The notes beneath the pieces are model-generated. The model saw nothing but the letters and a program-made list of their open reading frames with translations, did no database searches and was not told the DNA's origin. The translations under genes were made by a program, and so were the position numbers. From positions 10,354,001 through 10,418,000 of the forward strand of contig OY783212.1 in NCBI GenBank assembly GCA_963678705.1: a stretch of DNA of 64,000 nucleotides. Reading direction: 5' to 3'. Position 1 is the stretch's first letter; every line of letters starts with the position of its first letter. This document shows positions 1,196-41,144 of the stretch, piece by piece. The stretch is from Panorpa germanica. Taxonomy: Eukaryota; Arthropoda; Insecta; Mecoptera; Panorpidae.

Positions 1196-4100
1196 ATGGG
1201 TATAAAAACTGATTTGAAAAAATGGAACGCTTTCTCCAACAGAGGTCTAAATATGAGTAGTAAAAATTTGTTTGTTTATTACGAATTTAAATTTGGTAAA
1301 CCACTTCAAAAATTAACTGGCTGGTTTGTGGAACAGACATCTAGTAATTTAGAAGATGCGGTACTTGAAAAGCTTTTGGGAAAAGTGGGGTAAGTTTGTT
1401 TAAAATATTTTATTGTTTTAACAGTCCGCAGGTAAAATTTTGTGTAGAAGAATAATTTAGTGTATTTTTAAAACACTTAGCATGTTATGAGAATAGCATA
1501 AGAGATGTGATTTGTTAAATACATGTTATGTATTATCTATTACAGTCATCTAAAAATCTATTCTGTAAAATCGTTGCCTCCAAAGAGTTTAGAGAGAATG
1601 TTTACTTTCTTAAGTGACAATCCTAAAATAACGGCAGAAATATATTTTGCTGGTATACATGGATTTAACATCAGCCGACCTAACAAGTGGAATACAAAAT
1701 CAGTGAAACAAATGGCTGGAAAAATGAAAGAATTAGCAGACCACGATCGTGTTAAGCAGATGAAAGCGTTCGGAATGAAAGAATTTAGTTTTATGTCACA
1801 GATATTAAAACAAAGCTGTGTTCATCAAGAGAAGAGGCAGCAAGATATATGGGACATGGAAACTTATGCAAATGAAGAACACAGCGATGTATGGAAGGCG
1901 ATCAAGAACGATACATTAAAAGAGCTGGCTGATAAAGTACTTAAAAAAGTAAAAAGGTTTATTCATATCTTGCTTAAATGCCTTTGTTTATACTTAATGA
2001 TTTTTCTAATTCCCTATATTTGTATTAATAAGTAAAAATAGACAAGTATAGACAAATATACATTAACAAAATATGCTTTAATTTAAACTTTATTTATTCG
2101 ATTATTTCCTACACAGGTTGCACCCTTAATGACTGTGATATCCAAAGAGGATTTTAAATATAAAACTACGGATATTTTGAACACGTTTCTTTTCGGTTCT
2201 AAAGATTATTACAATTTTTCAAAATACTATGTTTATTACGAATTAAGACGGCAAAGCGGATATTTTAAATCAGGTTGGATCAATGATTACAAAAATACCC
2301 GCGCAGAAATTTCTTTACTACAACAAATGAATGGAGAAAATGGGTAAGCAGTATTCCTATAATTCATTTAAAGATTTTTCTGTGTTAAAATGTCTATACA
2401 AAAATTATTTTTAATTCTTAAAGGCATCTGATAATATATGCAGTAAAATCACCTACTAAAAAAATTATTACTGAAATTGAACATTTTTTAAATAAAAATT
2501 TAAAAATGACTATAGAAATATACTTTGCTCATATTGTAAAATTAAATGTGAGTGATTCCTCCTTACAAAGAGATTTCTTTATGCAATCTACCATAAGGAA
2601 ATTTACGAATAAGCATCAAGTTAAGACATTCAAAGTATTTGGGAACAGAGAATGGAAATTTATTGCAAAAAAACTACGACGAAATTTTAAAGAGGTGCAA
2701 AAACATTTTGAAAAAGTATTGAGATCTCCTAATGAAGCTATTGTTGATACATTGGACGAACTGCAGAAGAAGGTACAATATTTCTTTAAGATGTTACATT
2801 TCAATTTTAAATTCGAATTGTGCATTACTTTTGCATATTTTAGTTTTGTTCAATATTTAAATATTAAATGATATTTTATATTGCCTATTTTCAATACTGT
2901 GGTGGAACCACAGATGCCCGACGATGTTGGCAGTATTTTTGGTGTGGTGACTGCTGATTCTAATATTTTATGATTATGAGCACATCAAATTATGTAATTC
3001 TGATAACAACCAAACTCAGAAAACTTGCGGATTTCATTTAAATCTTAGTTTATCCTAATTTTATCATCATTAATTTATTTTATGATTGCTAATTATAATA
3101 ATTGCATTTTCCACCCAAATTTCAGATTGTTCGATCTGTTGAAAGGCCAAATAACAATTACGTTATTGATTTTAATAAGTTATGGGATTGTTTTACAAGA
3201 GTTGATGTTTCCCAAGAATATTTTTATATTTATTTCGAATTTATTGATGAAAACAACGTTAAAGAAGCGCAATGGTTACAAAACGTCAAATATGAACACA
3301 CTGAAGAGGAGTTATTGAAAAAACTTAAAAACAAGAAAAAAGGGTAAATTTATTTAGATATTATATTACTTATTTACGGAACACTGTCATTAAAGTTAGT
3401 AAATGAATGTATCATTTACGTAACATTCAATTAGAAATGTTTTAAACTATAATAGGTCAATAGGTTTTATATTATATTTTCTATAATTTTTTTTAGAATA
3501 TTGAACAAAGTCATAGTTAACAAAACTTTATTTTCAGCCTCATCCGATGTTTCTCGTTATATTCTCCATGTTCAGATTGTGCTGATAAAATCGTACATTT
3601 CTTAAATAAACATCCAGATATAACAATGGAGCTATATTTTCCAAATATCATTAATTTTGATATCAAGGAAATTAATACTTGGAGCCGAAGTTGTTTTGCT
3701 CCAATTAATATGCTAGCATGTTGCAAAAACATGTTAAAAATGTCAATATTTGGAAAAACAGAATGGGATTTCATATCAAATATTCTTGATGAAACATATA
3801 AAAGACATTCAAAAGCTGAAGAAGATATTTGGGATATGAAAACATTTCAAGATGAAGAATACAACGAAGTGTTTAATGCAATCAGAGAAAATACAGTCAG
3901 AGATTTGATTACAAAGGTTTGTATTTCAAGAAAAGAAATCATTTTTAATGACTTTAACAGTAAGCAAACTTTTCCCTCTTTTTATAGATTGCTGTTAAGA
4001 CGACGATATTAGACAAGTCAGAAGTTGAATTGAATAAGAATATTATTTGGGATTCCTTTCAATATAAAAATATGTTTACTGGATCATTACTGGAAAACAA

Positions 4101-5120
4101 GACCTATTACATTTACTACGTATTTGTTGATGTTAAAGGGCCAGTGCAAACAGGATGGGCAAAAGACTACAAAGGTTTTCATGCAGAAGTCGGTGTTTTA
4201 TCAAAATTTGAGAACGAAAAAGGGTAAGGTAAATAAATAAATATAAGAATCATAAAATATTTTGAATTTAAATCCACGTGTCCCCATCCAAATTTCAATA
4301 ATTCTTTTCACAATTTAACTGAAAATAAACAATTTTTCGTCACTATTAGCTTGATTCACAATTTGACGATCAGCTGTCAACGATATTTGCGCACATAGTA
4401 GTGAAAATCCCATAGAAAAAGCACTTTCAGTTTTTCCAGAATATTCCAATCTACCTAATTTTTTTAAGAACGTTAAAATATCTGGCGGAAGTTAGGATCC
4501 ACGAGAGAGGTCTGCCCATAAGGAATGTAGGTTTTTAACAATATTCGAGCATAGGGCTGGTTAGAGAAATGTATAATAGATACGAGATATTGATTTGGCA
4601 CAGCACTTCTACCATGGAATAGTCTAATGCAATTAAATTACACTAGGCGCCCCTTTTACAAATTTGGTGTACTCGGCGTCTGCACAATTATATTCTTCTT
4701 ATACCTTCCAGGACACTTATGATTTATTCTGCAGCGACTCCATGTTATATAGGATGTACAGAAGAGATTATAGAATTCCTAAAGGTACACCAGGATATAA
4801 AACTAGAAATATATTTTGCATCAATTCGGAACTTCGATGTCAGCAGACCGGAGACATGGGAATCGGCAACAACGGTGCAAGTGTGCAAGAAATTGCGGGC
4901 GTTGTGGTTAAATGCAAATATTCGTAACATGCGATCCCTTGACGAACAAGATTTTTGTAAAATTTTTCTGTGCGTTGGTTCTCCACAACAAGCAGCGAGT
5001 AATAGTTACGAAACAACACAAAAGAATCAAAATGCCGGATATCCGGAAATATGGAAGTCGATAAGGAATAATGATCTTAAAAATTTGGCTATAAGCAAGC
5101 TACATGTTATAGAACAATAA
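1196..5120 (+). CDS. Four-domain AID/APOBEC-like cytidine deaminase, gene A
   Basis: Predicted zinc-dependent nucleic-acid cytidine deaminase of about 799 residues in eight exons: 1196-1389, 1546-1936 (or 1948), 2117-2343, 2424-2769, 3126-3343, 3538-3916, 3988-4223, 4712-5120. Reading phase closes at every junction. D1 (residues 1-195) and D2 (196-386) have lost the zinc ligands (LED/LPPKS and RAE/SPTKK). D3 (387-585) has H444-T-E446 and SPC470-SD-C473. D4 (586-799) has H650-A-E652 and PC675-YIG-C679, with three residues between the cysteines instead of the usual two. SGW, the EIYF strand and (in D1 and D3) IWDMxTFxxEE match the AID core and its WNTFxE...W helix. There is no signal peptide or membrane segment, so an intracellular protein is expected. 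The start was chosen because the ATG opens the first domain directly. Catalytic activity and substrate are inference; membership of the AID/APOBEC-like group is well supported by motif order. Confidence 0.85.
4224..4711 (+). other. Longest intron of gene A
   Basis: 488-base intron between the HAE exon and the PCxxxC exon of D4, much longer than the other introns of this gene. It contains unremarkable non-coding sequence with a GC-richer patch around 4490-4530. No mobile element was recognised. Confidence 0.5.
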
Positions 5121-5158
5121 TTATTTTTAAATGTATATATTATACCTGTAAAACACAA

Positions 5159-5171
5159 AATAAAGAATAAA
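5159..5171 (+). terminator. Poly(A) signals of gene A
   Basis: Two AATAAA hexamers (5159-5164 and 5166-5171) lie 39-51 bases after the stop codon of gene A, a normal distance for cleavage and polyadenylation. Confidence 0.65.
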
Positions 5172-5517
5172 GGCAAAACATAAAATATTATTACTTAACG
5201 AAATCTAATGACATTTACTCTAAAATGGTTTAAGTAATAGGCAACTTTTGTTATATGCTTATTATGTTTAGCGGGTAATTACTTGATAAGAAATATTATG
5301 TATTATGTATATTCTAGAATTATAATATGATTCTGTTCCGTCATGTAACTTATTAATTGAACTTTAAAATAATATAATAAACACTTGAAAACAAAAGCTT
5401 CTATTTATTTAATTTTACTTGAATAGAGAAAAACAATAATAATTTAAATTTTTGATTGAACTAAAGGATATTGATGTTTTTATATTTTTAAATAAGCAAA
5501 AGATGATGGAGTTATAC
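5172..5517. other. Intergenic spacer, nothing recognised
   Basis: AT-rich spacer between gene A and the LINE fragment. No ORF or repeat structure stood out. Confidence 0.5.
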
Positions 5518-6258
5518 CTACATCCTAGAATAGAAAAGAGAGTGGGGGAGGAGGCCCGAAAAAGAGAAAGGAGTATTACGAAAGGAATGGAATAGCGACA
5601 GAGGAGGCAGAGAGAAAAATAGAAGAAGGCACAAGCATGGAAGAGGAGCTAAGGAGAAAAGACAAGGAGGTATAGCAACAGGAAAGAATGGAAAAAATTG
5701 AGAAGAGCAATTACAACACAAGATATAAAAGGATTTGGGAGAAAGAGATAACCCAATACTTAAGAGAAAAAAACACAAAAAACATGAGAAGGATTGCCAG
5801 ATTTAGATTGGGAAACGAGGAGAAAAGAAACAGATACTGGGCAAATAGCGAGGGAAGGATGTGTAGGATGTGCGGAACGGAGATAGAAACATTGGATCAC
5901 ATTAACTTTTCATGTGAGAAAAAAGTAATAAGCGAAAAGAATATTGGGCAGTTATTAAATGGCGGCAGTGAAGGGAAGAGGTGGATGGCAGAGATAGAGA
6001 AAAGGAACGAGGAAAGAGAAGGAATGGCAGAGTAGAAACAGGAGAGTAGCAGGAAGAGCGAAGCAGTAGCAGTAGCAGTTTCGTTTTTATTTTTATAAGG
6101 ATAAATTTATATTTTTTTCTTTTCGTTTGAAAGGAGTGAGAATGTTTAGATTTAATAAGGATCAAAATTGAATTAAGCATAATGACATGTAAATAAATGA
6201 GTGAAGGAAATGTAGTACCAAATGGCAAAAGCATTTAAAATAAAATTTAAAAAAAGTT
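5518..6258 (+). mobile_element. 3' end fragment of a LINE (R1/I-type ORF2 C-terminus)
   Basis: Purine-rich, GC-richer sequence unlike its surroundings. An open frame at 5688-6035 ends in the typical LINE ORF2 tail: ARFRLGNEEKRNRYW, then CRMCGTEIETLDHINFSC, a CCHC-like knuckle (C-x2-C-x7-H-x4-C). The 3' untranslated part ends in an A-rich tract near 6236-6258. This ORF2 tail is common in R1-like elements of ants and other Hymenoptera. Endonuclease and reverse transcriptase are missing, so it is a 5'-truncated insertion between deaminase genes A and B. Confidence 0.75.
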
Positions 6259-6555
6259 AACTCATGCCAAACACCTAGTTAAGATATAAACATGACATTG
6301 AAAAGTCACTGGTTTAAAAGTAATCATCTCTTTTCAATTTAATAATGTAGTACAAATTCATTTGATATTGATTTGGATATAGATATTATATACAGTTCCT
6401 GATAAGCTAATCTTTATCAAATCTGTATTTACTATTACTTCAGAGTTACTGATAAAATTTGGAGATACTTTTTGGATAAGATTATCATAATAACAAATGA
6501 TAACAGGTTGAAACTCGTCCAATATGGTGCAATGTATTCGTTGAAAATAGTCAAA

Positions 6556-6590
6556 TATAAATAACACCATTAAAATTGAGAGTTCAGTTG
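6556..6590 (+). promoter_or_regulatory. TATA plus initiator core promoter of gene B
   Basis: TATAAATA at 6556-6563 is followed by TCAGT at 6584-6588, whose A lies 30 bases after the first T of the TATA box. This is the arthropod TATA/Inr arrangement. It puts transcription start near 6586, so the ATG at 6612 and not the upstream in-frame ATG at 6576 should start the protein. Confidence 0.65.
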
Positions 6591-6611
6591 TTAAAATATT
6601 TTCTCGAGACA

Positions 6612-9600
6612 ATGGAATGCTATAGTAGCAGATGCATTTGGCAGTGTTTTGTAGAGAAAGATAAAAAAAGTAAATTAATAAAACAGTGTCCTCTGTACTT
6701 TCAGTTCTTTAATAATAATGGTAAATTAAAAGATTATGGTTGGATTAAAGGCAACCAACCTGAGGTTAAGGCATTAGAAAGAATACAAAGTAAATCTGGG
6801 TGAGTACACTATAAAGTTTTTTAAATACTTTATTGGCAGTAACTAGACTTAAAACAAATAAGAGCAAGATCGGTTTGTTTCTTGTGTTTCTTAGCTAAAC
6901 CTCTGGACTAAAAAATAATAGTTGCATTGATATCTGACAAGAAATTAATGTTAATTTTCAGTCATCTTCGATTCTACACTCCTAATTCACCAAGTCCCCG
7001 AAGCGCAAATATAATCCTGGAGTTTTTAAAGGATAAACCAAAGATAACGATGGACATATACTTCTGTACTATATACGGTATGCTAATAAACGACGTTACA
7101 ACTTGGAGCACACCAACAGTGATTAAAACAATCGAAAAATTAAAAGAATTAGAAAACCACAGAAAAATAAAGCAGATTAAAACAATGGGTCATAAAGAAA
7201 TGAAATTCATAGCAGAAATACTTTGTCAAAAATGGAATTCCACTAAAAAGTTAAAGAGCAATATTTGGAATATGGATACATTTGGAATTGAAGAATATTC
7301 CTCAATTTGGAGAGCGATTAAAACTGATAGCTTACATAAACTTTGGAGGAGGATTTGCAATCAAATATATGACAGCCCATTCAATGATAAATTAAAATCC
7401 TTTGAGATTTGTGACGTGTTTGCATCAGGAAAAGAAAATCATGTTATTTATGAATATAAGAACAATACAAGTCCCGTAGAATCTGGATGGATTAAGGACA
7501 TTGACAATAATAATGTGATCCTATCAAAATTGACTTGGACTAATAATATGTGAGTAAATGTTTGTTAATTTTAATTATTTTGGTTTTAATACTTAATTTG
7601 GTTTGGAATTTTCAAATTCCAATTGTTTTAGACAAATATAGTTAAAACTGTATGCATTGTCAAATGTATAGATCACCTAAATTAATAAAAACTAATTTCT
7701 CTTCTACAGGCATTTAGTTATGTATTGTGTGAATACACCCAGTTCTAAAGTTGTTTCCGATATCACAAAATTCCTCAAGAAAAATTCAACAGTAACTATG
7801 GAAATATATTTTGCTCATATCAAGAATTATAAAATTACTGATACCTTGCAATGGGAACAAATAAAAAATCAGGATCACTTTAAAAAACTTACTGACAATA
7901 AACAAATAGCAAAATTTATTCCATTTGGCGAGAAAGAATGGAAGATAATTTATACAAAATTAGGGCAAAAATATGTGACAAGACAAAGACAAATAGTTTC
8001 AACTGCTGACGACTCAACAAATGCGGTCAGCGCAGCTGATCCAACAACTACGGTATGATATTTATTGTAAAATTAACTCAGTTTTGAAGATTACCCAAAA
8101 AAATTTCACACTTCAATTTTATATCCCAAGCCCTCTTAGATACGATTACTTATCTCTTATAAATATAAACGGTTTTAAAAGACCAAAGACTAAATCATTT
8201 GGCTTCAGACATACTGTTTTATTAATTAACTGCTAAAATATATTCTATAGCTGTCTCTTGTGTTGCCATTAATTCAGGCGCACTGTTTCCCTGTGCAGAA
8301 TATTATATTTTCTTCATTTCTATTTATTTGTTAATGGCATAGTGTCTGACAGGATTGAGCTAACATAATGACGTATTTAGGTTTGATCCACGGACCAGTG
8401 TTATATTTATTACATTTACTTGTTATCAAAATTAATTTAATTATGTGCTTTCATAATCATAAAACTTATGAGGCAGTGGTGTAATACACATATACGAATT
8501 TGAGGCTAAGACAATATAAATATTGTCAACATTATAGGACGTCGTCGGTGATAAGAGCATAGTACATCATCAGAAATAGGTTTACGAATTTCGAATTTAA
8601 AGTATATTATATTTCGTATATTTTTTACGAATCGATGTAGTCGAGATTCCAACCATAGTACTGTTGCTATTAAATTGATAATTATCTTTAATAAGAGAGT
8701 GTAATTTACTCAGCTGTGAAAATATTTGTAAAATGTTAATCTCTAATGTTTGTTCCACAGCTGTCTCATTCCTTTGCTGAGCACTTGACATTGTCAGAAT
8801 TATGGGAATATTATCAGAGAAAAAGTTTTCCTTTTGGCGGTGAAACTTATGTATTATATTATGAATTTACATCTGAACTAAATGATATGTATGCAACATG
8901 GATTAGACATTATACATCCTGCAGCGATGTTGAAGAATTGTTGAAGTACTTGACCGACAAAAAAGGGTTGGTAAAGAGTTTAATTGTATATTGTTAAAAG
9001 TAACTAAAGTTTACAATTAGTCTATTTGAATATTTTTCAGATATGTCAAGTGCTATTTCTCAAGAAGTCCATGCATAAAATGTGCTGGAAATATAAAACA
9101 CTTTTTACAAAACAATCAAATTAAAATGGAAATTTATTTCTCGAATATATCAAAATTTAATATAAATGATCACCTAACCTGGCAAAATGCTGAAACCCTT
9201 AGCTCTTTTGATGCAATTAACACACTGTCATTATGTGAGAAAATTGTTGTTGTTAAAGTTTTTGAACGACCTGAATGGGAGCATCTGTCTCTTGTAAAAA
9301 TTTGTTTTCGTTTTAATACGACCAATAACCCTAATAATATTTGGGATTGGAGAGCCACTGAGGATGCTGAATATGTTGAAGCCTGTAAGGCGTTTCAAGA
9401 GAATAAAGTTCAGGAATTGATTTTAAAGGTAAGTTAAAAATATCTTAATTTCTTATTTTTGACAGATATTCCAAACTAAAATGACTCATTTATTTCTATT
9501 TCAGATCGATCTTGAGTTGGCGATAATGAAACCAGAAGATTTTGAAAAAAATAAGCAAAACATTTTTGATTCATTCCAAAAAAGAAATTGTTTTGACGAA

Positions 9601-10253
9601 GTGAAAGATAATTTTTATATTTATTATGAATTAATTGTACAATATTCTGTAGTGGAGTCAGGATGGGCTAAAAATATTATTAATCTGCACGCTGAAATGG
9701 CAATATTGCTAAATGTTCAACATAAGCATGGGTAAAGTATAAGAACTTTTAAATTATCCACTTTTCAAGGAAGTAATTTATTATCAATTTCTTGTTCACT
9801 ATTTAAATTTCTTATTCCAGACGTCTTCGGTTCTATTCTCTTGCAAGTCCTTGTTATCTCTGTGTGGATCAAATTATAAATTTTGTAAACAAAAATAAAA
9901 ACATAAAATTAGAGATTTATTTTTCTATGTTGTCTAATTTCCAAATTACAAAACCAGATACTTGGTCCACTGCAACATCAGTTCAAACATGTAAAAAAGC
10001 GAAAGAATTGGCTCTGAGTACTAATATTGTTGCTATGAATATATTCGGTTCCAAACAATGGTCAGTGATAAAACAACAGTTGGGAAAAGATTTAAAATGG
10101 GATGCTAATGAACCGGGTGACAAGGAATATTTGGAAATGTGGCTAGCAGTTCTTAGGAATAGGTTGGAACACCTTAAGAAAAAACTTCAGAAACCTCAAA
10201 GTATAAACAAACGAGATCCAATTTTACTAAGACAGAGGCCACACCGTACTTAA
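6612..10253 (+). CDS. Four-domain AID/APOBEC-like cytidine deaminase, gene B
   Basis: About 790 residues in seven exons: 6612-6799, 6962-7549, 7710-8052, 8761-8966, 9041-9428, 9505-9731, 9821-10253. D1 keeps the fold (HLRFY, MDIYF, IWNMDTFGIEEY) but the zinc site is replaced (QPE and SPSPRS). D2 is degenerate. D3 keeps SPC453-IK-C456 but has no clear catalytic His-x-Glu. D4 has H633-A-E635 and SPC658-YL-C661, the complete AID-type site with canonical C-x2-C. The 588-base second exon fuses the end of D1 to the start of D2, whereas genes A and C have an intron there. The donor after D3's first exon must be GTTGGT to keep frame. D1 and D4 align residue by residue with those of gene C. No signal peptide; the C-terminus is basic (KRDPILLRQRPHRT). 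Role in nucleic-acid editing or restriction is inferred from family. Confidence 0.85.
8053..8760 (+). other. Long intron of gene B with interspersed repeat
   Basis: 708-base intron between the D2 and D3 coding exons. Positions about 8380-8520 resemble 56370-56510 (a gATCtctgGAC-like tract, TGTTATCAAA, then GGCAGyGGTGTAATA), suggesting a small dispersed repeat. Confidence 0.45.
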
Positions 10254-10311
10254 AACTATTAGAAATCTTCGACACGACCGTTTATCGGGTTCAACACCAT
10301 TCGAAGAAACG

Positions 10312-10317
10312 AATAAA
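10312..10317 (+). terminator. Poly(A) signal of gene B
   Basis: AATAAA 59 bases after the gene B stop codon. Confidence 0.6.
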
Positions 10318-10319
10318 TT

Positions 10320-10890
10320 TTATGTTCATTTATTTAATATTTTTTACATTTATGTAAAGTATTGATATTTCTTTTAAGTAATATTTTTAATTTAAATTTT
10401 ACATTTGGTATAGGGACTTATTGTACTACCCTAAAATTAAAAGCTTCTAATAATATTGCATCCTTAAATATGTATTCTTAAGTATATTTTACATAAAAAA
10501 ATATTACAGAAAAATTGTTTTTTTATTTACAAAAGACTTTTATATCAAAACACATAACATTTCTGTTCATTTACGTAAAGATAATTAAGCAAATTAATTG
10601 ATGTAATGAAAAAAACTTATGTAATACTTTCAATTAATTTGCATAAAAATATTTATATAAATATACGTAAAATGTAAGTGATATTTTACATAAAATATTA
10701 ACAGTATATTAAGTAACATGCTTTGTATTTAAAAGGTGTAATTAATATATTGGGTTTGTTCAGAATTATTTAAACAAAATAAAATATTTCTCGAAAAAGG
10801 ATTTCTTTGTCACTAATAATTAAAAAACGATGGCAAACTTAAAGATAATAAAATTTAAACGATTATTTAATATAGAATGCGCCTAAAGCA
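10320..10890. other. AT-rich spacer dense in TTTAYRTAAA-like motifs
   Basis: No gene. The stretch repeatedly carries tttacataaa, ttacgtaaa and tttatgtaaag variants on both strands. Similar motif clusters recur near 27420-27530, 35760-35900, 45880-45960 and 54180-54250. Confidence 0.4.
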
Positions 10891-10891
10891 A

Positions 10892-11756
10892 TGGGCTTGT
10901 GTCCTCATTTTTAGTGATCGATTTTTCAATTGGTGATTGAAATTGATGTTAATAAATGTGTATTGGCGTGTCTATTTTATTAAATACGAGGCGTGTTTTT
11001 TAAGTAAGTACCGTTTTGGAATTAAAAAAAGACGTGCAAAGATATCGCAATAATTTTATTTTTACATGAAAGCCTGTACCTTAATCTACCCAAGAAGAAC
11101 AAGAACAAGAAGAACAAGAACAAGACGAACAAGAAGATCAAGAAGAAGAACAAGAAGAAGATTTTGAAAGTTACGACTCGGACGATTAAATTTCACTACT
11201 TTTTTTTAACTTAAATTGCTTTTATCTTTTCAATCTCTGCTAATATCCATTATTTTTCAATAGTTTCAAATTAAACAGGATCAAAACTGACCCGTGGAAT
11301 AGGCCTACTGGGGAAACCACGTTAAAAAAACGCGCTAAGTACACTACCTCATAGGTGGCGAGGAAACGTGTGCATATTATGACGATTACAACTTTTACAA
11401 CTTTTTGAATCGTTATATCTCAGAAACGGTGGCTCGTAGAGAAAAAAGTATTAATAAATTTTTTGTAGATAATTTTATGATCTACAATTTTTGTCTGAGG
11501 TATTTTTATGATAAAACTTACCGTTTTGTTGAAAATCGCGAAAAACTCATTTCTTTGACCTTTGACCTTGAATAAAATTTTTTCCTTACAGAGGAAAGAT
11601 GGGGAGTTTTCAAATTTTGTTTTTAATGATATTTTAAACAATCTTACCGATTTTCAGCTTGGTGGGAATTTATGAAATTTTACTCTTATTTTTTGGTTTA
11701 ATTTGACGGGGCTAATAGTACACTTTTATAGAAATTAAACATAGGACACAATCCCA
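10892..11756 (-). mobile_element. MITE family 1, copy in reverse orientation with replaced middle
   Basis: Ends TGGGCTTGTGTCCT and AGGACACAATCCCA are inverted repeats. The left 96 bases are the reverse complement of the right end of the copy at 28130-28763, and the right 45 bases match its left end. The interior (about 10987-11700) is unrelated: it starts at TA with CGAGGCGTGTTTTTTAAG, resembling a Tc1/mariner-type tip, and contains an acidic-tail reading frame and a TTGTAGAT/ATCTACAA hairpin. It is probably one or more insertions plus a deletion. Confidence 0.6.
11091..11189 (+). other. Gln/Glu-rich reading-frame end, probable transposon remnant
   Basis: A 32-codon open stretch of repeated CAAGAAGAA-type triplets encodes alternating Q and E and ends EEDFESYDSDD then TAA. 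An in-frame stop lies just upstream, so this is either a fossil C-terminus or a simple purine repeat. It lies inside the replaced middle of the MITE copy. Confidence 0.35.
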
Positions 11757-14570
11757 TTGTGTGGACCGAAATTTAAGATGATATTTTATTTTGTAAACAT
11801 CTAGTTACAGTTCTATTGTATTATTTGAATATTTGAGTAGATTTCTAAAATTGTATTTACTTAGACGAATTCGAAGGTATAATCTTCCATTATTGATATT
11901 ACATTGTAAGTTATCACGGGTATCCCCAATTACGTATTATTGTGTGTAGTAAATACAACGCAACGTGGTCGGCTAATGTCAATGTCAAATATTGATAAAC
12001 ACCGACAAGTCGCGACAGCCACGAACAAAGACGAACCAATACGAACTACTCAGTAAGCCGAACGAAACGGAGTTTAGATTCGTAGCATGGTATAGGAACT
12101 CATATAGGGACAACTGGTACTATGATAACTTCATGTCGAACGCTTATTTTATAAGAAAGTTTATAGGCTTGACTGTACATATTTTAGACATACGTCATTT
12201 AATCCAGGTACCACTTCAGAAAGAGTTATTTAAGTGCCCTAGAATATTAAAAAAATTAAATTATCTTATTTAAAAGGAAAGAAAAATGAACAGACATAGA
12301 AAATCAAAGAACCAAATATTTATATTTGCCTTTAATGTTAATTTTAGTTATAATTATTTCGAATAAGTACTTTAGGGTCACCATTAGTAGAATTGTATCT
12401 TTTATATTAAGTATAGACGTAATTAATTACATTTTTTTACAGATAAAATCAGGAAATGTTGTAATGTACAAATAATAATAGGGTTTTGAGTCTTTGCTTT
12501 AGATTACTTTGAGTATTTTAATAAAACAACTGTGCTTTTAAAGAACGCCTTCAATGAAACTTCTAAATACGCCTCTTACTAATATACAAATTTATCTTAG
12601 TCCTCTGACGTCATATTTCCGAGCATCTCCGACAATCTCCGAGTTTTATGCATATGGCTGCCGTACTGTCATATTTCTAAGTGATTACTGTTTTATTTCA
12701 ATTAAAAGTAATAAATAGTTAAAAAGTGCAAATTTAATTGAAGTTTTTCGTATATTATACAAATAGCGATAAGAAAAATAATAGTTGGCAGGTAAAATAT
12801 TAATAGTTGTTATTATCTTAAAGCAAATACACTAACTCTAACAGTGGCGTCATTGTTAATTATATATAACATATTATTATTTTATTAGACTTTATGATAC
12901 TTTTCAGGACTATATATTGGGGCCAAAGCACTATATATTGGGAGCTGCCAAAGAAATGTAAGAGGCAATAGGCAGCAGATGAATTAACTAGCTAGCTAAA
13001 CAACTACATCATCAAAAATCAAGAAGGACTTTGGTTTATATGCAATTACATTAATTAAATAATTTAATATTTTTGTTTTTTCAGGAAGAATTTGTATGTA
13101 TATACAAATACATTAATTACAATAAACATTGTTAACTAAAAATTGCGGTTTTTTTTTTATTTATAAAATTTTTGATATTTATAATAATTCAAACATGTAC
13201 TCATTCCCGCTTTTTTTGTGTTTTGCAAGAACTTCATGTCGAACGCAGTTACAAATACCATGAAGTTAGCATAGGACCAAAGCTTAACATGGGAGTTACC
13301 GATCTATAGTATATATCATCTTTGATTCGTAGAAACCAACATCGCGACGTACAAGTATGAACATGTTCGAACAAGCGTCCTTTTCAAATGTTGTAACGCG
13401 CAAAACCATTCATGCTTTTTCGTACCAGTGGTTTTTACGGTGTGGTTCAAAAGTATTTAGTTCTAAATAAAAATTAATTAATAAACATTTCTTTGAATAG
13501 TTTTACTTCCTTTTTTAAGTTAATCAATCACATTTAAAATTGTTGAGTTTGTAATAAAAAACTTTGCAGTTAATGTAAAAAAAAAGTCGAACCGAATCGA
13601 AAGTAAATGACAATTTTTAATGATTTACTTTAGGATATTGCTGAAATATTTATATTTACCCACTCCTTAATAAACGCATGATCTACAATAAATATACTAA
13701 ATGAACACTAGAATGAATATAATTACATTTACGTGCATGGGAATCCATAAAAAATTTACAAGAAAAAATGGGGCAAAATCTCAAATCCCTTATATTCCAC
13801 TTACTCTAAAACAGGCCACTTAGTCATTGTAAACGGACAACACGTTTTTGAATTGCGACGTTTTTTAGTTTGGCAGGATGGAAGACAAGTAAGCGCATTA
13901 GTTTAAATTTCGGCGCGTTTGTGTTTTGTTATAACATGTAACAAAACCACAGGAGACGATAGAAAAAGTATTTCTAGTGCACGAATATACCACATCATAC
14001 ATTGGCAGCAAAGAGTACATCGTACAGATATTAAATAGTAATGACATCTATATGTTGTTACAAATAGTTTTATAACTACCATAATAAGAATCAATTAGTT
14101 TTGGCATTATATAAATGTCTCTTTCTAGCATTCCTCTACCATTATCTGTCTCATAAGTCTCTATCCTCTTTCTATCATCTCACTTCCTCACTTTCATCCA
14201 TCCTTTCTTAATACATTTCACTTTCAATAATAAGAGAGAGAAGGACAACGTTTATACATATGTATCATACATGTCGCTGGTGTTTGAGAGCATTGCAGGC
14301 GCTCCGTATAAATAAAGAAAATAAAATATATATTTATTATAAATTAGACAATATCTTTTATATGAATTCACACTAATACATTAATAAGTCAAACAAATAC
14401 ATATACACCCTGTGACAATACACAAGTTGCAGTTAATACTATAATTCCATTGAGTAAAATAAAATTTACTATAATCACGAAAACATGTAGAAACTTGTTT
14501 GCCACTATTATCCGCATATACGTGTGTTGATACTTATATCTATATCTTTATTATTTTTATGTTTTCGCGA
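11757..14570. other. Intergenic region between genes B and C
   Basis: 2.8 kb of non-coding, repeat-derived DNA. Visible items are a short direct repeat (ACTATATATTGGG twice near 12908-12941) and the phrase ACTTCATGTCGAACGC at both about 12127 and 13230. No frame has convincing coding character or splice sites. Confidence 0.45.
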
Positions 14571-14574
14571 GTCA

Positions 14575-14611
14575 TATATAAAGAAAGTCAAAAACGTAAA
14601 CAATATCATTC
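14575..14611 (+). promoter_or_regulatory. TATA plus initiator core promoter of gene C
   Basis: TATATAAAG (TATAAA at 14577-14582) is followed by TCATT with its A at 14608, 31 bases downstream, the same layout as gene B. A start near 14608 gives a 29-base leader before the ATG at 14637. Confidence 0.55.
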
Positions 14612-14636
14612 GTACGGTAACTGTTACTCAAGCACG

Positions 14637-17600
14637 ATGTCTTCACGGTATAATTATCAAGCAGTGTGGAACTGTTTTACGCAGAGAGAAGGACGAAACA
14701 AAATAGCAAAGCATTATCCTCTATTTTTTGAATATTATAGTATTAATGGTGAAATAAAAAATTATGGTTGGATCAAAGGAACTCATAGAATTCATCCGGA
14801 ACTGTTACTATTTAAGAAAATTCAAAATAAGAGCGGGTAAGTGTACTTATTTGTAATAGTTTATTTTTTAATGTTTCTTGGTTCGATTTATTGATTTATA
14901 TTTTCTGTAGTCCTGCATTTTGTTGACGAGGAAAAGAAACTAACGTCATATTAACTTTTTCAGTCATCTCCGAATTTACGCTCCCAAATCCCCATGTTTT
15001 CGATGCGCCGATAGGATCCTTGACTTTTTAAAGGATAAACCAAAAATGACCATGGAGATTTACTTTTGTACTACATATGGATTGCAAATAAACAATCTTC
15101 AAACTTGGAATAAAAATGCAGTTATAAAAACAGTTGAAAAATTGAAGGAATTAGAAAACCATAGAAAAATTCGGAATATTAAATCTTTTAGCCAGAAAGA
15201 AATGAAATTTATAGCTGGGATTCTGTCAAAGCCTTATAACTCAACCAAAAAATTAAAGAAAGATATTTGGGATATGAAAACTTTTGGAACTGAAGAGTGG
15301 TCTGAAATGTGGAAGGCCATTAAAAATGATAGTTTACACAACTTGGCTGAAAAGGTATTTTTCAATTTCTTAATTCTAATAAAATGATATGATATTAACA
15401 TTTAATATATAACACAAATTTTATAATTATTTCTTTTTCTTTTTTCTCATTTACCAACTTAAGAAACCTATATATTTTTTCATCAACACTTTTTCATTAC
15501 TTTCTTTTGCAGGTGAAATTTTCTCATGCGCACATGACTTCAGCGGAGGTAAAAGCAAATTCTTCAGCAATAATTCAAAGTTTTTTGTCTGGAGACAAAA
15601 ATTACATATTTTACGAAAGCAGAAGCAAAAATGGTCAAACTTTTTCTTCTTGGATTAACGGCGAATGCAGTAATCAATTTATGGAAAGTGTCTTGACTGA
15701 CTTGGTTAAGAAAGAAATTGTGTAAGTATATAATTTGTGTTTTCTAAGTGCCTCTAATTTTTTTCTAGATCTGTACAGCAAAATAAAGAAGTATTATATG
15801 ATCTCACTTAATAATATGCTACTGCTTTTAATTTTCAGTCACTTGGCTTTGTACTGCGTTCACTTACCCACTGCAAAAATGGTATCAGAAATTAGCCGAT
15901 TCCTAAATATTAACAAAACGGCCACAATGAAAGTGCGGTTTGTACATGTTAGAGATTCAAAAATTACGAATCCATCTCAATGGATCAAACTCAAGAATCA
16001 AAGCCATTTAAAGAAGCTGAATGGAAGAAAACAAGTACTTCAGTTTAGCCCATTTGGTATCAACGAATGGATGCTCATTTGCAAAAAATTGCAGCAAAAT
16101 TATTATGATATAGAGAAGGAAGCATTATTATTGCAAATGCCAAAAACTACTAATTCAAACACAGCTATAGTAAATCCGCTGAATTTACAAAATGAAGATG
16201 AACCACGAAACATAATGCAACCTCAAAAAGCTGCTAAACTACAAATTAAGGTATTTATTGATTTTTACTTTGTTGTTGATAAATACTACGTTTCTTTTGA
16301 TCTATTTCATTTGAGCTACACCAATCTGATACATTTTTAAATAGTATTCAACAAGATAGTTTACAATTCAAAACAGACAAAATATGTCGTTTTGCATATT
16401 TTTCAAACTTGAAATTGTTGTTTGAATTATTTGAAAAAATTTTCTATAAAAATGCAATAAGTATTAATTTTGGAATATTTTTTTGTTTCTTTTTACAGAA
16501 TGATTTTATTGATACTCCAGAATTTTTATCATTGATTTGGGAACGACTTCAAAGAAATGATGCAAACGCAATAGAAGGCGGTCCAGTATATTATGAGTAT
16601 ATTGATGAGTTTAATAAAACTGAATTTGGTTGCGCATACACATACCTTTACTGCAACAATGTAGTGGGAAAGAGCGCCAATCAAAAAGGGTAAAACTAAA
16701 AACTTTCTAAATGTTATTTTACCCTCTTGTAAAACTCAATTTTTAATTAACCCAAAATATTTTTTCAGAACTCTCAGATGCTACGCTACAGTGTCACTTT
16801 GTTGCAATTGTGCAGATGATTTAGTGGCTTTCTTAAACAACAATCCTTTACTTAAAATGGAAATTTATTTCTCAAACATATTGAATTTTAATATTATGGA
16901 CCCGGGAACTTGGTCGAATCCAAATGTACTTAGTTCATTTGAAGCAATTCATAAATTGTCATTATGTGAAAATATCATCGCGTATAAAATGTTTGGAAGA
17001 AAAGAATGGGAGCACATGGCAGCAGTGACAAAGTCTCACTATGTGCACGTGGATAAAAATTCTGAAGATATTTGGAACATGGAAACCTTCCAAGATGAAG
17101 AATATGCTGAAGTTTATAAAGCAGTCCAAGAAAAAAAAATTGAAGAATTAATGAAAAAGGTACATAAGTTTTATTGTATTAAATACCAAATCATACGAGT
17201 ATGTCAAAAACACCGTAAATATTCAGTGATGTGTTATTATTTCAGATTGGGCTTAAGCGTTCAATAATGAAATCTACAGACTTTGAAATAAATAAACAAA
17301 AGATTTGGAATTCATTTCAAAATAGAAGTTGTTATAATGAAATGAATGATGACAATTATTTTATATATTATGAATTTGTTAACGATGAGGAGAAATTGGA
17401 ATCTGGCTGGGCAAGACATTCTCCAGGGATGCACGCTGAGATGGCAATACTATGGAACTTCCAAAATAGAAAGGGGTATGTTAGCAAATGATCAACCTTA
17501 TTGAGAACTTCTTATGACAATGAGTATTAAAAAAACATTTATTTCAGATGCGTTCGATTCTACTCCGTTGCAAGTCCATGCTACTGCTTATGTGTCGACG

Positions 17601-17980
17601 AAATTACAGAATTCTTGAAAGTTCATAGCAATATTAAATTAGAAATATATTTTTCAATGTTATACAACTTTCAAATTACCAAACCAGAGACATGGAATTC
17701 TGTTGCATCTATTCAAACCTGTGAAAAATCAAGAGAACTGGCGTTGAATGAAAATATTCTGAAAATGGAAACCTTTGGACAAGCAGAATGGTCATTGATC
17801 GCACAACAGTTCGGATATGATTTTGTTTGGGATGAAGAAGTGCCTGGTGATAAAGAATATGCGGAAATGTGGAGTGCGATCCTTTTGGAAAACTTAGACG
17901 CGCTTAACAACATTCGATTGAAGAACTATCAGGATAAACTATACGAAAGCATCCCCTTAGGTAAACCAGATTTTATTTAA
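14637..17980 (+). CDS. Four-domain AID/APOBEC-like cytidine deaminase, gene C
   Basis: About 818 residues in eight exons: 14637-14836, 14964-15354, 15513-15721, 15839-16250, 16499-16689, 16769-17159, 17246-17475, 17548-17980. D1 has a complete site: H53-P-E55 (the HPE form seen in some APOBEC3 domains) and SPC78-FR-C81. D2 (198-404) is degenerate and carries an extra Asn/Pro-rich segment. D3 keeps a C479-x2-C482 pair after Leu instead of Pro and lacks His-x-Glu. D4 has H661-A-E663 and SPC686-YCL-C690, with an extra cysteine (C688) between the ligands. Thus two domains may be catalytic, the first and the last. Glu-to-Pro spacing is 21 residues, shorter than the 27 of AID, implying a compact loop. 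No signal peptide. The start ATG follows the mapped TATA/Inr. The gene is a tandem paralogue of B, especially in D1 and D4. Confidence 0.87.
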
Positions 17981-27692: not shown

Positions 27693-28129
27693 TTTAGTAA
27701 CAAATTATTTATTATTCTTCACTCGATGTATTACCGCTCTAGCACTTAATTCAGTTATGATAATTCGGGTCACTTCGTTGATGTAATGGAGGAACCAATC
27801 TTATGGCTAAAGTTCAATTTGGAATTGTGTTTGTATGACCAACGTGTTCCAATGCTTACGCTGTAGTGTTCAAAATTGGTTAACCCGGTATATGCAAAAG
27901 GAAAATAAATGACAGCACTATCATTATCACTCCTGACTGCTATAAAAAACACCGTCCATTGCTTCACAAAAATATTGTCACATATCTGTCACGGCTTAGC
28001 ACTGAAAGGGTCAATGTCATTTTTCTCTTCAAAATATTACATTTTTAAAAACATGAAATACGTAATCAGATTTCATACAAACTTATTTATGTTTAGTCAA
28101 AGTTGCACAGACATTTTACTTTATGTCAA
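27693..28129. other. XDH upstream region
   Basis: Probable promoter and leader of XDH on the minus strand, ending at a MITE. I could not identify a clear TATA or initiator. Confidence 0.4.
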
Positions 28130-28763
28130 TGGGCTTGTGTCCTATGTCTTAACTTCTATAAAAGTGTACTGTATATTGATAAAGTGGGTTACTAGAACCT
28201 CAAATGTCTAATTATTTTTTAATAACTCCTTATATGTTAAGAGAAATTAACAATTAAAAAAGTCATTTTGTCTCTTTAATTATTAAAGGGATTCCATGTT
28301 GTACACATTCCAAGTGCATGTGACATCACAATCCTTGTGTAAGGTTACCAACCTTACAGCTCATAAATCTCTGCTATATGTATTTATATATCAAAATATC
28401 AAATATTATTTACAGCTATTTCAAGGAACAATCAAATTTCAATACTATGTCTGCCTTAGCAGGGTTAAATAAAATAAAAACTTATTATTCTTTGATTTGA
28501 CTTGATTATTTGACTACCAACAGCTACAGAACATTACCACAGCACTGACCTACTCAACAAATAACTGACGTTAAAATGCATTTCACGTCATACAAATATG
28601 GCCGACCATTTCTAGCGCTAAAACTACAATTCAAACTTTTAATTGCTATATCTCCGTCAATATTTAGATATTTAATAAAATAGACACGCCAATACACATT
28701 TATTACCATCAATTTCAATCAACAATTGAAAAATCTACCACTGAAAATGAGGACACAAGCCCA
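28130..28763 (+). mobile_element. MITE family 1, near-complete copy
   Basis: 634-base non-autonomous element bounded by TGGGCTTGTGTCCT and its imperfect complement AGGACACAAGCCCA. It matches the copy at 36967-37601 over its whole length with only scattered substitutions. No coding capacity. Confidence 0.85.
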
Positions 28764-30012
28764 TTGGAATTAATATATTTTTAGACAAAAACATTAATTA
28801 TGATTTTAAGCTTTCATCTTAGTCCCAAATTTAGAATTTTGACATTGACCTTTTTATCGCCAAGCTTTGCAAATCCTTGATCTCATCTAAACGTTAGGCA
28901 TTCACTTTCAGCGAGAAGATGTTGAGGACTTAAATTTCAAATTCCAAAAATTTCAAATGCCAAATGAAGAGAGTTACAACTAAATTAAAAACTATAACTA
29001 CTATTATCCTTAAACACAGATCATATTTTTTTTTAAATCTATTTCCGATGCCGATAAATTTTGCGTCTGTCAAAAGTCGGACAGTTTGTTATATACGCTT
29101 AAGTGATTAATAAGCTTAATAAGAACATCTATTATATTTAGATACACTGAACGTGAGATGTACACATACTCGTATGTATCCATAAATAAATTGCAATCGT
29201 TCTTAATTAGAGATGTAACATTAGACCAACTACAATTTAATTATTACATGGAGTTGAGATACCGATTTAATAATATGTACATGTACATGTAATATTTATT
29301 GTCACGGCACAGAAAAAAACACGGACGAACTAACATAAATTTAACCGTTACACCAGATAATACTAATTCTACATTTAGTTATATAATTTGAACGAATTGT
29401 TGCCACGCATTAATATTTTTATAGAATATCACAACACACGATTTTAATATATATAAATATGTACTTGACTTGTACTTCGTGTTTGAGTTATTATAAAATA
29501 CAAAATAATAGGATCTTGGGTTTAAATTCACGTAACACCTGGATAGATGTTTACCTGAATAACATTCATTTGTATTAGAATCGAAAATGAATGTTATAGT
29601 GCTGTATGTATATTTTAATAAAAAGTTATAATCGATTTATCTTTTCCGACTTCTTTATTATAGATGTATAACTGAGTTAAATTCTGCCTATTTTTGGTAA
29701 AAGCATTTCGGATATTTTCGAGTGAAACTACTGTTACTACTAATACTGTTTCTTCAGGTTCGATCCTTGGATCAACGCTATATTTCCTAGGTTCTTATCA
29801 AAGCGAAATTAATTACATGACATGTCCTTAAAAAATATTAGACATCGATGTTATACACAACTATAAAGGTCAGTGATAAGACTCATTATTGAAAATACTT
29901 AACTTAAACTTAACTTAACTTAAAATACTTAGAAAATATTAAACATTTGTATAACACATTATACTCTTTGACAATGCCTATAACCTCAATTTGGGCCAAA
30001 ACTTCATTATTA
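28764..30012. other. Intergenic region, nothing recognised
   Basis: AT-rich non-coding DNA. A small run of ACTTAA units occurs near 29898-29925. Confidence 0.45.
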
Positions 30013-33370: not shown

Positions 33371-34702
33371 TTAATAAGAATAACCATTGTTTCCACCATT
33401 TCCATTTGATGGATATCCTCCATTTCCACCGGATGAATAACCGCCATTTTGGTATCCTCCATTGCCAGTTTCTTCGTAGGAGATCTTTGGACGGTAACCA
33501 TTCTCATCAGCTTCATACTGGACGATCTGTATTTATGGAATAGACACAGATATTACATAAAGAATTTTATATAAAATTTACTTTTCTTTAAGATTCTTAA
33601 TGTGATTTACCTGTTTGCGACCATCGGGAAGAAGGACGTAGTATTTACCAACAGCACGGTCTCCTTGACGAGATTCTTGGTGTCCGAAGTCGTTGCCACT
33701 CTGTTCATCTTTAACGGCATATTCGAATTGGTAGTTGGCAGGCTCCTGTATTCACAAAACGTCAAAATAAGTTAGTGCAGTCATTGGATATTCATCAGTA
33801 ACCGCGAAATGTATCTGCTACGTGAATGTTACCATTCTTTCTCCTTTTTCTTTACGTCATTACTTACGTTGTTGGAACTATCGTCATATCCTCCGTTACT
33901 GGCGTAACCTCCGTTGTTTGCGTAGCCTCCATTACCTCCATTAGCAGGTAAATATTGGTTTGAAGGAGCTCCGTATTGTTTGGATGGGGCACCATATTGT
34001 GATGATGGAGCTCTATATTGTGAAGAAGGTGCACCGTATTGTTGAGATGGTGCTCCATATTGCTGAGATGGGGCTCCGTATTGCTGAGATGGAGCTCCAT
34101 ATTGTTGGGATGGGGCACCATATTGTGAAGATGGTCTGCTGTGATTTTTTTTTTCAAATTGAATTATAGTTTTAAAAATATCAAATTTTTTGTGTAGGTA
34201 AAACATTTTAAAAGAAGTATATTTAATTTAATGGGTAGGTTTAATAATATTTTATAGGTTGTTATTTGTATAATTTGTCTAGTGCAACATTAACATAATG
34301 CTGAGTATACTTTTAAAACACTTGTTGTCATTATCTGTATTTAATATTGATGATATTTTTTGCAATAAATTTTTACATCTTTGATTGAAATTTTGCACTG
34401 ATTTTTATGTTTTTCTTAATGTACTTCAATTGCATAACCGATTTTTCTAATAAATTAATTTTAATAAAATTTAAATTACAGATTTATACCAACCTTGGGG
34501 CACCATAATTTGAGGAAGGTTTGCCAAAGATTGCTGTTGTTTGTCCATTGCTAGGGGGAAGATAATTATTTTTTGGTGGTTGATATTGGTTATTTGGGGG
34601 TAGATATTGATTTCCTGGTGGAAGATATTGGTTATCTGGTACTGGAGGTTCTGCAAGAACTACCGCCAAAAATCCTAACACACAAACTGTAGTGAACATC
34701 AT
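33371..34702 (-). CDS. resilin: Pro-resilin (elastic cuticle protein, RR-2 type)
   Basis: Secreted rubber-like cuticle protein, cross-linked through dityrosines. Four coding exons on the minus strand: 34702-34494, 34138-33868 (acceptor could be three bases later), 33745-33611, 33526-33371; about 256 residues. The first 17 residues (MMFTTVCVLGFLAVVLA) are a signal peptide. Then come NQYLPP-type repeats, about nine SxxYGAP resilin repeats (one as YRAP), and a Gly/Asn/Tyr linker. The RR-2 Rebers-Riddiford chitin-binding domain (about 161-225) starts EPANYQFEYAVKDEQSG and includes YYVLLPDGRKQIV. A Gly-Gly-Tyr-rich tail follows. The ATG sits immediately after a TTGTTTCAG acceptor, so a leader exon lies upstream. 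Confidence 0.93.
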
Positions 34703-36231: not shown

Positions 36232-36966
36232 CACGCGAAAATCATCAACAAAGAAAGTTCTGAATTACAAAACACGGTTACTGTCGCTCCACTATTACAA
36301 TTCTTCATCAAACGTAAACGGATTCGTATGTGTTCTTCTTTTCATACGATGCGATTTTATATATGGTAATATTTTTTAGAACAATTGCGTCTGTTTTATT
36401 TTATTTTACACTATATATTTTAGAATGCAATCATTATATTTTTACTTGTACTTTTAAATTGTTTTCTTGTTAAACAATGGATATATTTTAATTATTTAAA
36501 GTTTATAGTTATCGTTATAAGATGTAATATATAATACTATTATAATATGAATAAATTATGTAGTAGAGGTTTGTGAATAATTGTAATTCCCATGCCTTTT
36601 AGAGTAACAGTTACACATTTTACATTCATGTGTAACATACGATTCTTGTTTTACGTGTTATATCATCGAGACTTATCTTGTTAACAATGATTTAATGGTT
36701 TGTGTAAACTAATTAAAACATATTTATTCATACCTCTTATTAATTGTAGAAAATATCGTTTATCATACTTAATTTTGTTACTGAAATATACATATTTTTT
36801 TAAATTTTATTTATTCAACGTCAGACTAAATCCAATGTTGATTGCAACCATCGACTGTCTCCTACTATGTTGTCAATTATTATGGTGTCGAGCAGTAATG
36901 CATCGAAGTACCTAATAAGTTTATGATATATTATGTCCAAACCAAAACAGAAAAGAAATTTGAATA
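36232..36966. other. Region upstream of pro-resilin
   Basis: AT-rich, probably regulatory for pro-resilin. No gene recognised. Confidence 0.4.
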
Positions 36967-37601
36967 TGGGCTTGTGTCCTATGTCTTAATTTCTATAAAA
37001 GTGTACTATATATTGATAAAGTGGGTTACTAGAACCTCAAATGTCCAATTATTTTTTAATAACTCCTTATATGTTAAGAGATATTAACAATTAAAAAAGT
37101 CATTTTGTCTCTTTAATTATTAAAGAGATCCAACGTTGTACACATTCCAAGTGCATGTGACATCAGAATCCTTGTGTAAGGTTACCAACCTTACAGCTCA
37201 TAAATCTCTGCTATATGTATTTATATATTAAAATATCAAATATTATTTACAGCTATTTCAAGGAACAATCAAATTTCAATATTATGTCTGCCTTAGTAGG
37301 GTTAAATAAAATAAAAACTTATTATTCTTTGATTTGACTTGATTATTTGACTACCAACAGCTACAGAACATTACCACAGCACTGACCTACTCAACAAATA
37401 ACTGACGTTAAAATGCATTTTACGTCATACAAATATGGCCGACCATTTCTAGCGCTAAAACTACAATTCAAACTTTTAATTGCTCTATCTCCGTCAATAT
37501 TTAGATATTTAATAAAGTAGACACGCCAATACACATTTATTAACATCAATTTCAATCAACAATTGAAAAATCCACCACTAAAAAATGAGGACACAAGCCC
37601 A
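36967..37601 (+). mobile_element. MITE family 1, near-complete copy
   Basis: 635-base copy in the same orientation as that at 28130-28763, with the same termini. The few differences include transitions in both directions. Similarity this high indicates recent spread. Confidence 0.85.
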
Positions 37602-39292
37602 TTTATTCAAAAATTAGAATATAATTATTTATTTAATTTTTATTTCATGATAGCTTATATCCGAACGCCGATTACCTTTTACTATGTCGGCGGTTTTTAT
37701 GGTGTCGAGGTGATAAAGACTGCTAATGGAACTACAGCTTCCTGAAAATGATGACTACTATACGTATGGCAATAAAATAACTACAAATATTTGAAGTTAC
37801 ATCTAAAAGATGCTGCTTGAAGTAGACAAACTTAAACATATTTCTGCGTGTCTACTAAACAATGACGGTGACCTTGGCAACAACCTTTAATTAAATCCAC
37901 TGTCTGCATAAGTATCGTGTTTTGAATATATCATGAAAAGATTGCTATCTGTGTACAGTAATTTAGCAAAATCGATAATTTTATATTACTCACTATAAGT
38001 ACAAAATGACTACAATGTTAATAATCGAGTAGTTATTTTTAAATAAATTAATTTCTTTTTTAAAATCAGATATTTACAAATAGTATGGATTTCCTTGAAT
38101 TTTTACCGCGATAATAGCTACACTCTACTACCGTATCGTAGTAGGCTTTCTTATTGATTAAGACAAGACATACTCTAGCCCCAGCTAAACGACATGACAT
38201 CACAAACAATTGTCTGTGCAATTAAACAATTGTATAGTTTATAATTTTATTGACCAGACTAGATTTATTATTAGATATTTGAATTTCATTTATATTTTCA
38301 ATAAATTTGACATCATTTTGTCACTGTTGCATTTCCTGAAATGTTACACCTCATAAAACAAATAGAACAATCTGATTGGTGCAATCGATATAAAACAGCG
38401 TTAATTATTTACATACAATAAATTTAATTCATTTTGTATGAATTAATTCTCAGTCTATGCACCGTCTATTGAAATATTAACAATAGATTAATTATTACAA
38501 TGTTGCAACAAATGAAACAACAACGTTGCATCAATTTTCTGGTTCAATTTGTATGTTGTAGTGATGTATTATAATAGATACTATTTGCTATAAATCTAGA
38601 TATTCTGCTGATGTAAAATGCAGATACCATTCTATAAAGTCTATACTATCTTGGTTTATTTTGTTAGTGTGAATCAAATTTTTATTACAACCAACTAAAT
38701 ATGACATAGAAAAAACAATATTTTCATACCTAGACCTCACACGTTTAGATACTTCTAACTTAGTAAGTGGTAACTAGATACAATGGAAATTGGGGAGAGA
38801 TTAAAAAATAAGATTCATGTACCATACCAACTAAGTAAATTACGATTGGAGACAATTAGAAATTCTATTTTGTGCGGTATCCAAAATATCAGTTGCGCCG
38901 TGTCTCATATTTTCTCTATGCTATGAATATAGAGATATAGGATTTCTTTACATAAAATAAATTCAGCAAATTATCTACAACTGGTAAAATGACGCCAAAT
39001 TCTTTTGACTAGGATAAAAGTTAACCTTGGCAAAAAAATTTTTATTAAAAAACAATGTATATATATTTTAATTTCTAATAGAGAATTCCGTGCAAAGTGT
39101 GAAGAATGAATTTTATTTCTAGAAATAACTAAAAGATGCATAATTTCACACACTATTAAAAAGTTTTCGAAATATCAGCTCAGACGCCAATTATTCGGTC
39201 ACTGCATTTTGGGTGTGGATCAAACTTTCCACATAGCACACTTGGGCGCCTAAAGGATTACTTTTAGAAAAGTGTATAAAGTAGAGGATTAC
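37602..39292. other. Intergenic region, nothing recognised
   Basis: AT-rich non-coding DNA between the MITE and the LINE. No ORF with coding character. Confidence 0.45.
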
Positions 39293-39304: not shown

Positions 39305-39511
39305 CAGTTTACATCGAGTCTTCTTGGTGAGCGCACGTATTTACAATAAACAAAACAATAAAATAAATAGTGATCTTTTTTTTTTTTGCAAATTATAATA
39401 TTTTTTTTTCGTGATTTATTTTTTTTTTAAATTATAATTTATATTATTATTAAGTGTTATTAATTAGAAGTGAAGTAACTTCTATTTAATTATCACTGGT
39501 TAATTAACAAT

Positions 39512-40939: not shown

Positions 40940-41144
40940 GAAAACATCGATATATAAATTAAGTTTATTTTTTAAAAATCTATTCACATCACTAAACCTA
41001 ATCGTTTAATAAATTTACTAAAATATTAAATCAACAATAATTATATAAACGGAGAGAAAATAAAATAAAATAAAATATATAAATAAATCTAACAACAAGA
41101 CCAAGGACAGATATAAAAATCAATAATTAATTAAAACAGTTAAA

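Follow-up and report, generated by a model that had tools for sequence, protein, structure and literature searches.

Vertebrate immunity depends centrally on deaminase mutators, among them the AID/APOBEC enzymes, which alter DNA or RNA and are turned against viruses; insects are usually said to depend on RNA interference and PIWI-interacting RNAs (piRNAs). The AID/APOBEC active site combines HxE with PCx2-6C, a further feature of the active-site loop in APOBEC3 and AID being the tryptophan of SW(S/T)PC (seen in the alignment rows of AID, APOBEC3C and APOBEC3G). The APOBEC3 genes form a tandem array, as do the genes described here. According to passages of two accounts, the inactive N-terminal domain of double-domain APOBEC3s binds RNA and single-stranded DNA (ssDNA) and aids processivity, the C-terminal domain is catalytic, and the N-terminal domain of APOBEC3G is positively charged (PMC7354603, PMC6946564). 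Active invertebrate members are described, in passages of PMC5956068, for sea urchin and brachiopod: the protostome AID/APOBEC-like protein LaAIDL1, from the brachiopod Lingula anatina, has two tandem domains and is an active mutator in bacteria. Here we describe a tandem array of genes with four such domains per chain in the insect Panorpa germanica (Mecoptera), most of it within a 64,000-nucleotide stretch of contig OY783212.1 (assembly GCA_963678705.1, positions 10,354,001 to 10,418,000, forward strand). This whole stretch is the window; coordinates are window positions, and negative or otherwise window-relative ones run beyond it.

The reading we favor, with moderate confidence, is that the array consists of four intact host genes, each for an intracellular four-domain deaminase of about 800 amino acids (aa), APOBEC3G-like and likely to serve in defense. 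The abstract of the 2018 PNAS survey by Krishnan et al. reportedly mentions arthropods. A literature search, judged mostly by titles, abstract openings and passages, yielded no report of an insect AID/APOBEC protein and no natural chain of three or four AID/APOBEC domains: the phrase “four deaminase domains” in PMC5097136 refers, by its title, to engineered fusions; the words “arthropod” and “insect” do not occur in the text available from PMC5956068; and other passages name Dscam splicing for arthropods (PMC13428168), treat bacterial deaminases in arthropod symbionts (PMC3482391), or merely cite the 2018 survey (PMC10903818). Relative to the literature examined, the array appears to be new.

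Gene Structure of the Array

The initial annotation had proposed twelve related units, four to a chain, spread over three genes of one strand, and they are present as described, in open frames between a first ATG at 1196 and a last stop ending at 17980. The tandem arrangement also stands, but the supposed triplication does not: a fourth gene, Z, again with four domains, came to light through genome-wide family matches left of the window and a subsequent scan of the flank. The gene models are:

Gene Z, window-relative -4876 to -213: 8 exons, 807 aa, open, intron plan as in A–C
Gene A, 1196..5120, + strand: 8 exons (1196-1389, 1546-1936, 2117-2343, 2424-2772, 3126-3343, 3538-3916, 3988-4223, 4712-5120), 800 aa, four deaminase domains, open, GT-AG introns
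Gene B, 6612..10253, + strand: 7 exons (6612-6799, 6962-7549, 7710-8052, 8761-8966, 9041-9428, 9505-9731, 9821-10253), 790 aa, four deaminase domains
Gene C, 14637..17980, + strand: 8 exons (14637-14836, 14964-15354, 15513-15721, 15839-16250, 16499-16689, 16769-17159, 17246-17475, 17548-17980), 818 aa, four deaminase domains

Exon ends of A, B and C were set by hand so that the frame is kept, and were checked by script; as placed, every internal intron is GT-AG, the donor after 8966 in gene B (GTTGGT) being weak-looking. Within each domain, a single phase 2 intron separates the HxE half from the PCxxC half, and the junctions between domains are phase 0, except in gene B, where domains 1 and 2 (D1 and D2) have an exon in common. 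No internal stop interrupts the frames of Z, A, B or C; reading the spliced sequences in either of the other two frames meets 47-92 stops. Identity among paralogues is 35-56% for the D1s and 35-54% for the D4s, and the non-synonymous proportion is below the synonymous (pN < pS) in all 24 pairs compared: purifying selection acts between the paralogues.

Among the window's 1326 stop-to-stop pieces, the 12-domain profile singles out its own 23 source exons (E <= 5.8e-11) and no others (next match E 0.17; best on reversed pieces 0.061). Within 303 kb around the cluster, 31 family exons score E <= 1e-7, all from the same four genes, and no further copies were seen (next match E 0.16), though very diverged ones could be missed. 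PF18778 and PF08210, run over the 464-Mb, 249-contig assembly with 16 and 15 candidates scored, respectively, gave 9 matches each, every one inside the cluster; none of 14 control genomes matched. The cluster lies well within a 19.2-Mb contig and adjoins a xanthine dehydrogenase/aldehyde oxidase-type gene.

Family Membership

Sequence and motif, together with the fold of half of D4, place the array domains in the AID/APOBEC superfamily, as the initial annotation had inferred. Curated Pfam models provide a test independent of the 12-domain profile, and the proteins of all four genes pass the cut-offs of NAD1 (PF18778), SNAD4 (PF18750) and APOBEC_N (PF08210) by a wide margin. E-values are 1.1e-30 (SNAD4), 2.7e-30 (NAD1) and 4.2e-26 (APOBEC_N) for the gene A protein, 7.5e-29, 1.3e-27 and 2.3e-26 in the same order for gene B, and 6.1e-28 (NAD1), 1.3e-27 (SNAD4) and 5e-25 (APOBEC_N) for gene C. 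The best-scoring model alternates among these three, with APOBEC3 added for single domains, and there is no clear winner. A profile search of the PDB gave APOBEC3G and other double-domain APOBEC3s as the best match, and the fold test, run on half of D4, returned the cytidine-deaminase fold, not one outside the deaminases.

The likeness to vertebrate double-domain APOBEC3s such as APOBEC3G covers the deaminase fold, the HxE/PCxxC site and the presence of several tandem domains per chain. The array proteins differ in having four domains rather than one or two, an intron within the domain between HxE and PCxxC, and an arthropod-type host; the SW(S/T)PC tryptophan before S/T-PC is absent in 16 of 16 domains. 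Because domain number and the SW motif depart from that class, they are not to be filed as APOBEC3, though they may work like one. Nor are they to be filed as SNADs, which are secreted: no signal peptide was found at the N-terminus of the four proteins by a crude hydropathy test that leaves an upstream coding exon possible (within the first 40 aa, the highest Kyte-Doolittle mean over 9 residues is 0.63-1.52 for Z, A, B and C). Since they lack a hydrophobic start, the four-domain proteins are, unlike SNADs, probably intracellular. Patterns drawn from the D4 alignment matched 292 stretches in viral contigs and 288 in prokaryote genomes; no relative was confirmed among them, and the patterns are narrow.

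Zinc Sites and Charge

The units had been thought each to carry the zinc and proton-shuttle motifs, which proved not to be so: only 5 of the 12 domains in the window (A3, A4, B4, C1, C4) have a complete site. All of the following lie on the + strand:

A domain 1, 1196..1936: neither HxE nor PCxxC; pseudo-catalytic, degenerate
A domain 2, 2117..2772: RAE, no PCxxC; pseudo-catalytic; SNAD4 3e-6
A domain 3, 3126..3916: HTE and SPCSDC; zinc site complete
A domain 4, 3988..5120: HAE and TPCYIGC; zinc site complete
B domain 1, 6612..7352: QPE, SPSPRS; pseudo-catalytic; SNAD4 8.4e-7
B domain 2, 7353..8052: motifs lost; pseudo-catalytic; NAD1 2.4e-6
B domain 3, 8761..9428: C-S-D in place of HxE, SPCIKC kept; incomplete; APOBEC_N 2.9e-8
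B domain 4, 9505..10253: HAE and SPCYLC; zinc site complete
C domain 1, 14637..15354: HPE and SPCFRC; zinc site complete
C domain 2, 15513..16250: motifs lost; pseudo-catalytic; alone no Pfam match, groups with the other D2s
C domain 3, 16499..17159: HxE lost, SLCCNC kept; incomplete; APOBEC3 4.3e-7
C domain 4, 17246..17980: HAE and SPCYCLC; zinc site complete

With Z included, complete sites number 8 of 16, distributed unevenly: D4 keeps H, E and both cysteines in all four genes, D2 has lost it, in part or entirely, in all four, and D1 (Z and C) and D3 are complete in two genes each. The complete D1 or D3 sites of some genes set the array apart from APOBEC3, with its inactive N-terminal domain. 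In gene B, D3 (8761-9428) has a cysteine at the first HxE place and retains both cysteines of PCxxC; because a cysteine at this place occurs in the CxE signature described for other deaminases, in a passage of PMC3482391, the C-S-D site may still bind zinc.

Net charge also varies along the chain: every D1 and D2 is positive (+3 to +27) and D3 and D4 are lower (-11 to +9), giving a basic N-terminal half and a near-neutral or acidic C-terminal half. The difference was reached by 3 of 12870 relabelings, a figure that ignores relatedness.

Search for an Editing Footprint in a Neighboring LINE

An intact long interspersed nuclear element (LINE) in the window offered a place to look for strand-biased editing:

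LINE, 39479-44873, + strand: open reading frame (ORF) 1 of 486 aa, ORF2 of 1248 aa; Pfam RVT_1, endonuclease and RNase H on ORF2

Full-length places at a rounded 100% identity to ORF2 make up the best 39 of 906 candidates, window copy included, and the burst appears very recent, perhaps ongoing. Nine ORF2 copies were compared (that of the window and 8 of the 38 others): all are open, and 13 directed changes among them comprise 2 G>A, 2 C>T and 9 others, with one further site, G in 5 copies and A in 4, for which direction is not assignable. A 35-base stretch of the element is matched at more than 520 places by patterns that allow one transition type, 527 if any G may be A and 524 if any C may be T; among the matches listed, the sequence is unchanged in 100 of 100 for the G-or-A pattern, and 1 of 100 differs (by two C>T) for the C-or-T pattern. 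No G-to-A excess or other sign of strand-biased editing is seen in these copies. The test has little power: it covers near-identical copies of a single LINE and, for the pattern counts, a single short stretch, and it is biased against edited copies because the 39 of 906 scored were the most intact.

Possible Functions

The four-domain chain looks like a lengthened version of the double-domain APOBEC3 plan, as outlined for APOBEC3G in passages of PMC7354603: an inactive, basic N-terminal part and a catalytic C-terminal part. Judging from this anatomy, the protein would work as an extended APOBEC3G. Its basic D1-D2 half, pseudo-catalytic in part, would hold on to RNA or to single-stranded nucleic acid, and C-to-U deamination would fall to D4, joined in some genes by D3 or D1; the likely use is defense against viruses or retroelements. 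Gene duplication with differential loss of active sites would then have produced paralogues of different specificity. Deaminase activity is plausible, since the protostome relative LaAIDL1 mutates DNA in bacteria; tandem domains are common to both, two in LaAIDL1 and four here. More tentatively, the array may be an APOBEC3-like mutator that insects have in addition to RNA interference and piRNAs and that took on a form of its own, made up of tandem, single-chain, four-domain ssDNA/RNA cytosine deaminases; the basic half and as many as three active sites (in Z) would jointly act on nucleic acid of viruses or retroelements.

The same enzymes could instead edit host mRNA or DNA, as do APOBEC1 and AID, or have a developmental or germline role. 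Homology does not tell the substrate (scores are strong for the NAD1, SNAD4, APOBEC_N and APOBEC2 models alike), and no editing footprint was seen on the neighboring LINE; against this, diverged tandem paralogues with differential site loss would seem to resemble conflict-driven families more than a conserved housekeeping editor, and we consider this explanation unlikely. Another possibility is that catalysis is secondary, the proteins acting by binding, either blocking reverse transcription or sequestering viral nucleic acid. Deaminase-independent APOBEC3 action is, judging by their titles, a topic of PMC7764128 and PMC3874205, and the incomplete site in 8 of 16 domains, the basic N-terminal half and the lack of an editing excess in the LINE are all compatible with it. 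That D4 retains H, E and both cysteines in 4 of 4 genes at only 35-54% identity points, however, mainly to selection for catalysis, or at least for zinc binding, and leaves this explanation quite improbable.

That the genes are decaying or untranscribed relics, or non-host sequence, is very unlikely. The weak-looking gene B donor and the degenerate D2s and A1 are what decay might leave, but four frames of some 800 codons remain open on a common intron plan, the other frames are filled with stops, and pN < pS holds throughout; contamination is hard to reconcile with a position deep in a 19.2-Mb contig beside a xanthine dehydrogenase-type gene.

If the favored reading of an APOBEC3G-like defense array is true, an insect would own a multi-module version of deaminase defense, possibly an extra defense arm for insects. 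An intact, selected arthropod array with four domains per chain would provide a genetically tractable group for studying mutator origins, and would show how added pseudo-catalytic domains alter targeting and processivity; its compact parts lend themselves to direct testing in standard deamination assays.

Neighboring Sequences

Between genes A and B, at 5676-6032, is the end fragment of a LINE ORF2 (zf-RVT 1.6e-4, below the cut-off), with an 81% identical copy at window-relative -19421. Farther right, a QYGAPS-repeat ORF at 33829-34227 has no Pfam match; we take it to resemble resilin-like proteins. An interspersed repeat of about 640 bp occurs at 28128-28765 and 36963-37627, and beyond the window at window-relative 65562-66200, 68425-69074 and 74483-75118; four copies are mutually 93-97% identical, and one is about 81%. 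At 56787-60291, inverted repeats of 714 bp, 98.5% identical, surround a 553-aa ORF (57796-59457, minus strand) that has no Pfam match at E 0.001; the whole resembles a transposon of 3.5 kb bounded by long terminal inverted repeats.

Right of the window a 6.4-kb segment with coiled-coil-like ORFs is present twice (window-relative 115562-122008 and 157575-164000), with 18 substitutions over the fetched part. Compared as a possible mobile element, the pair was uninformative; it seems to be host sequence that underwent a recent segmental duplication. Left of the window, from -44416 to -41458, two arrays, both built from a repeat unit some 146 bases long, face each other in mutually inverted orientation.
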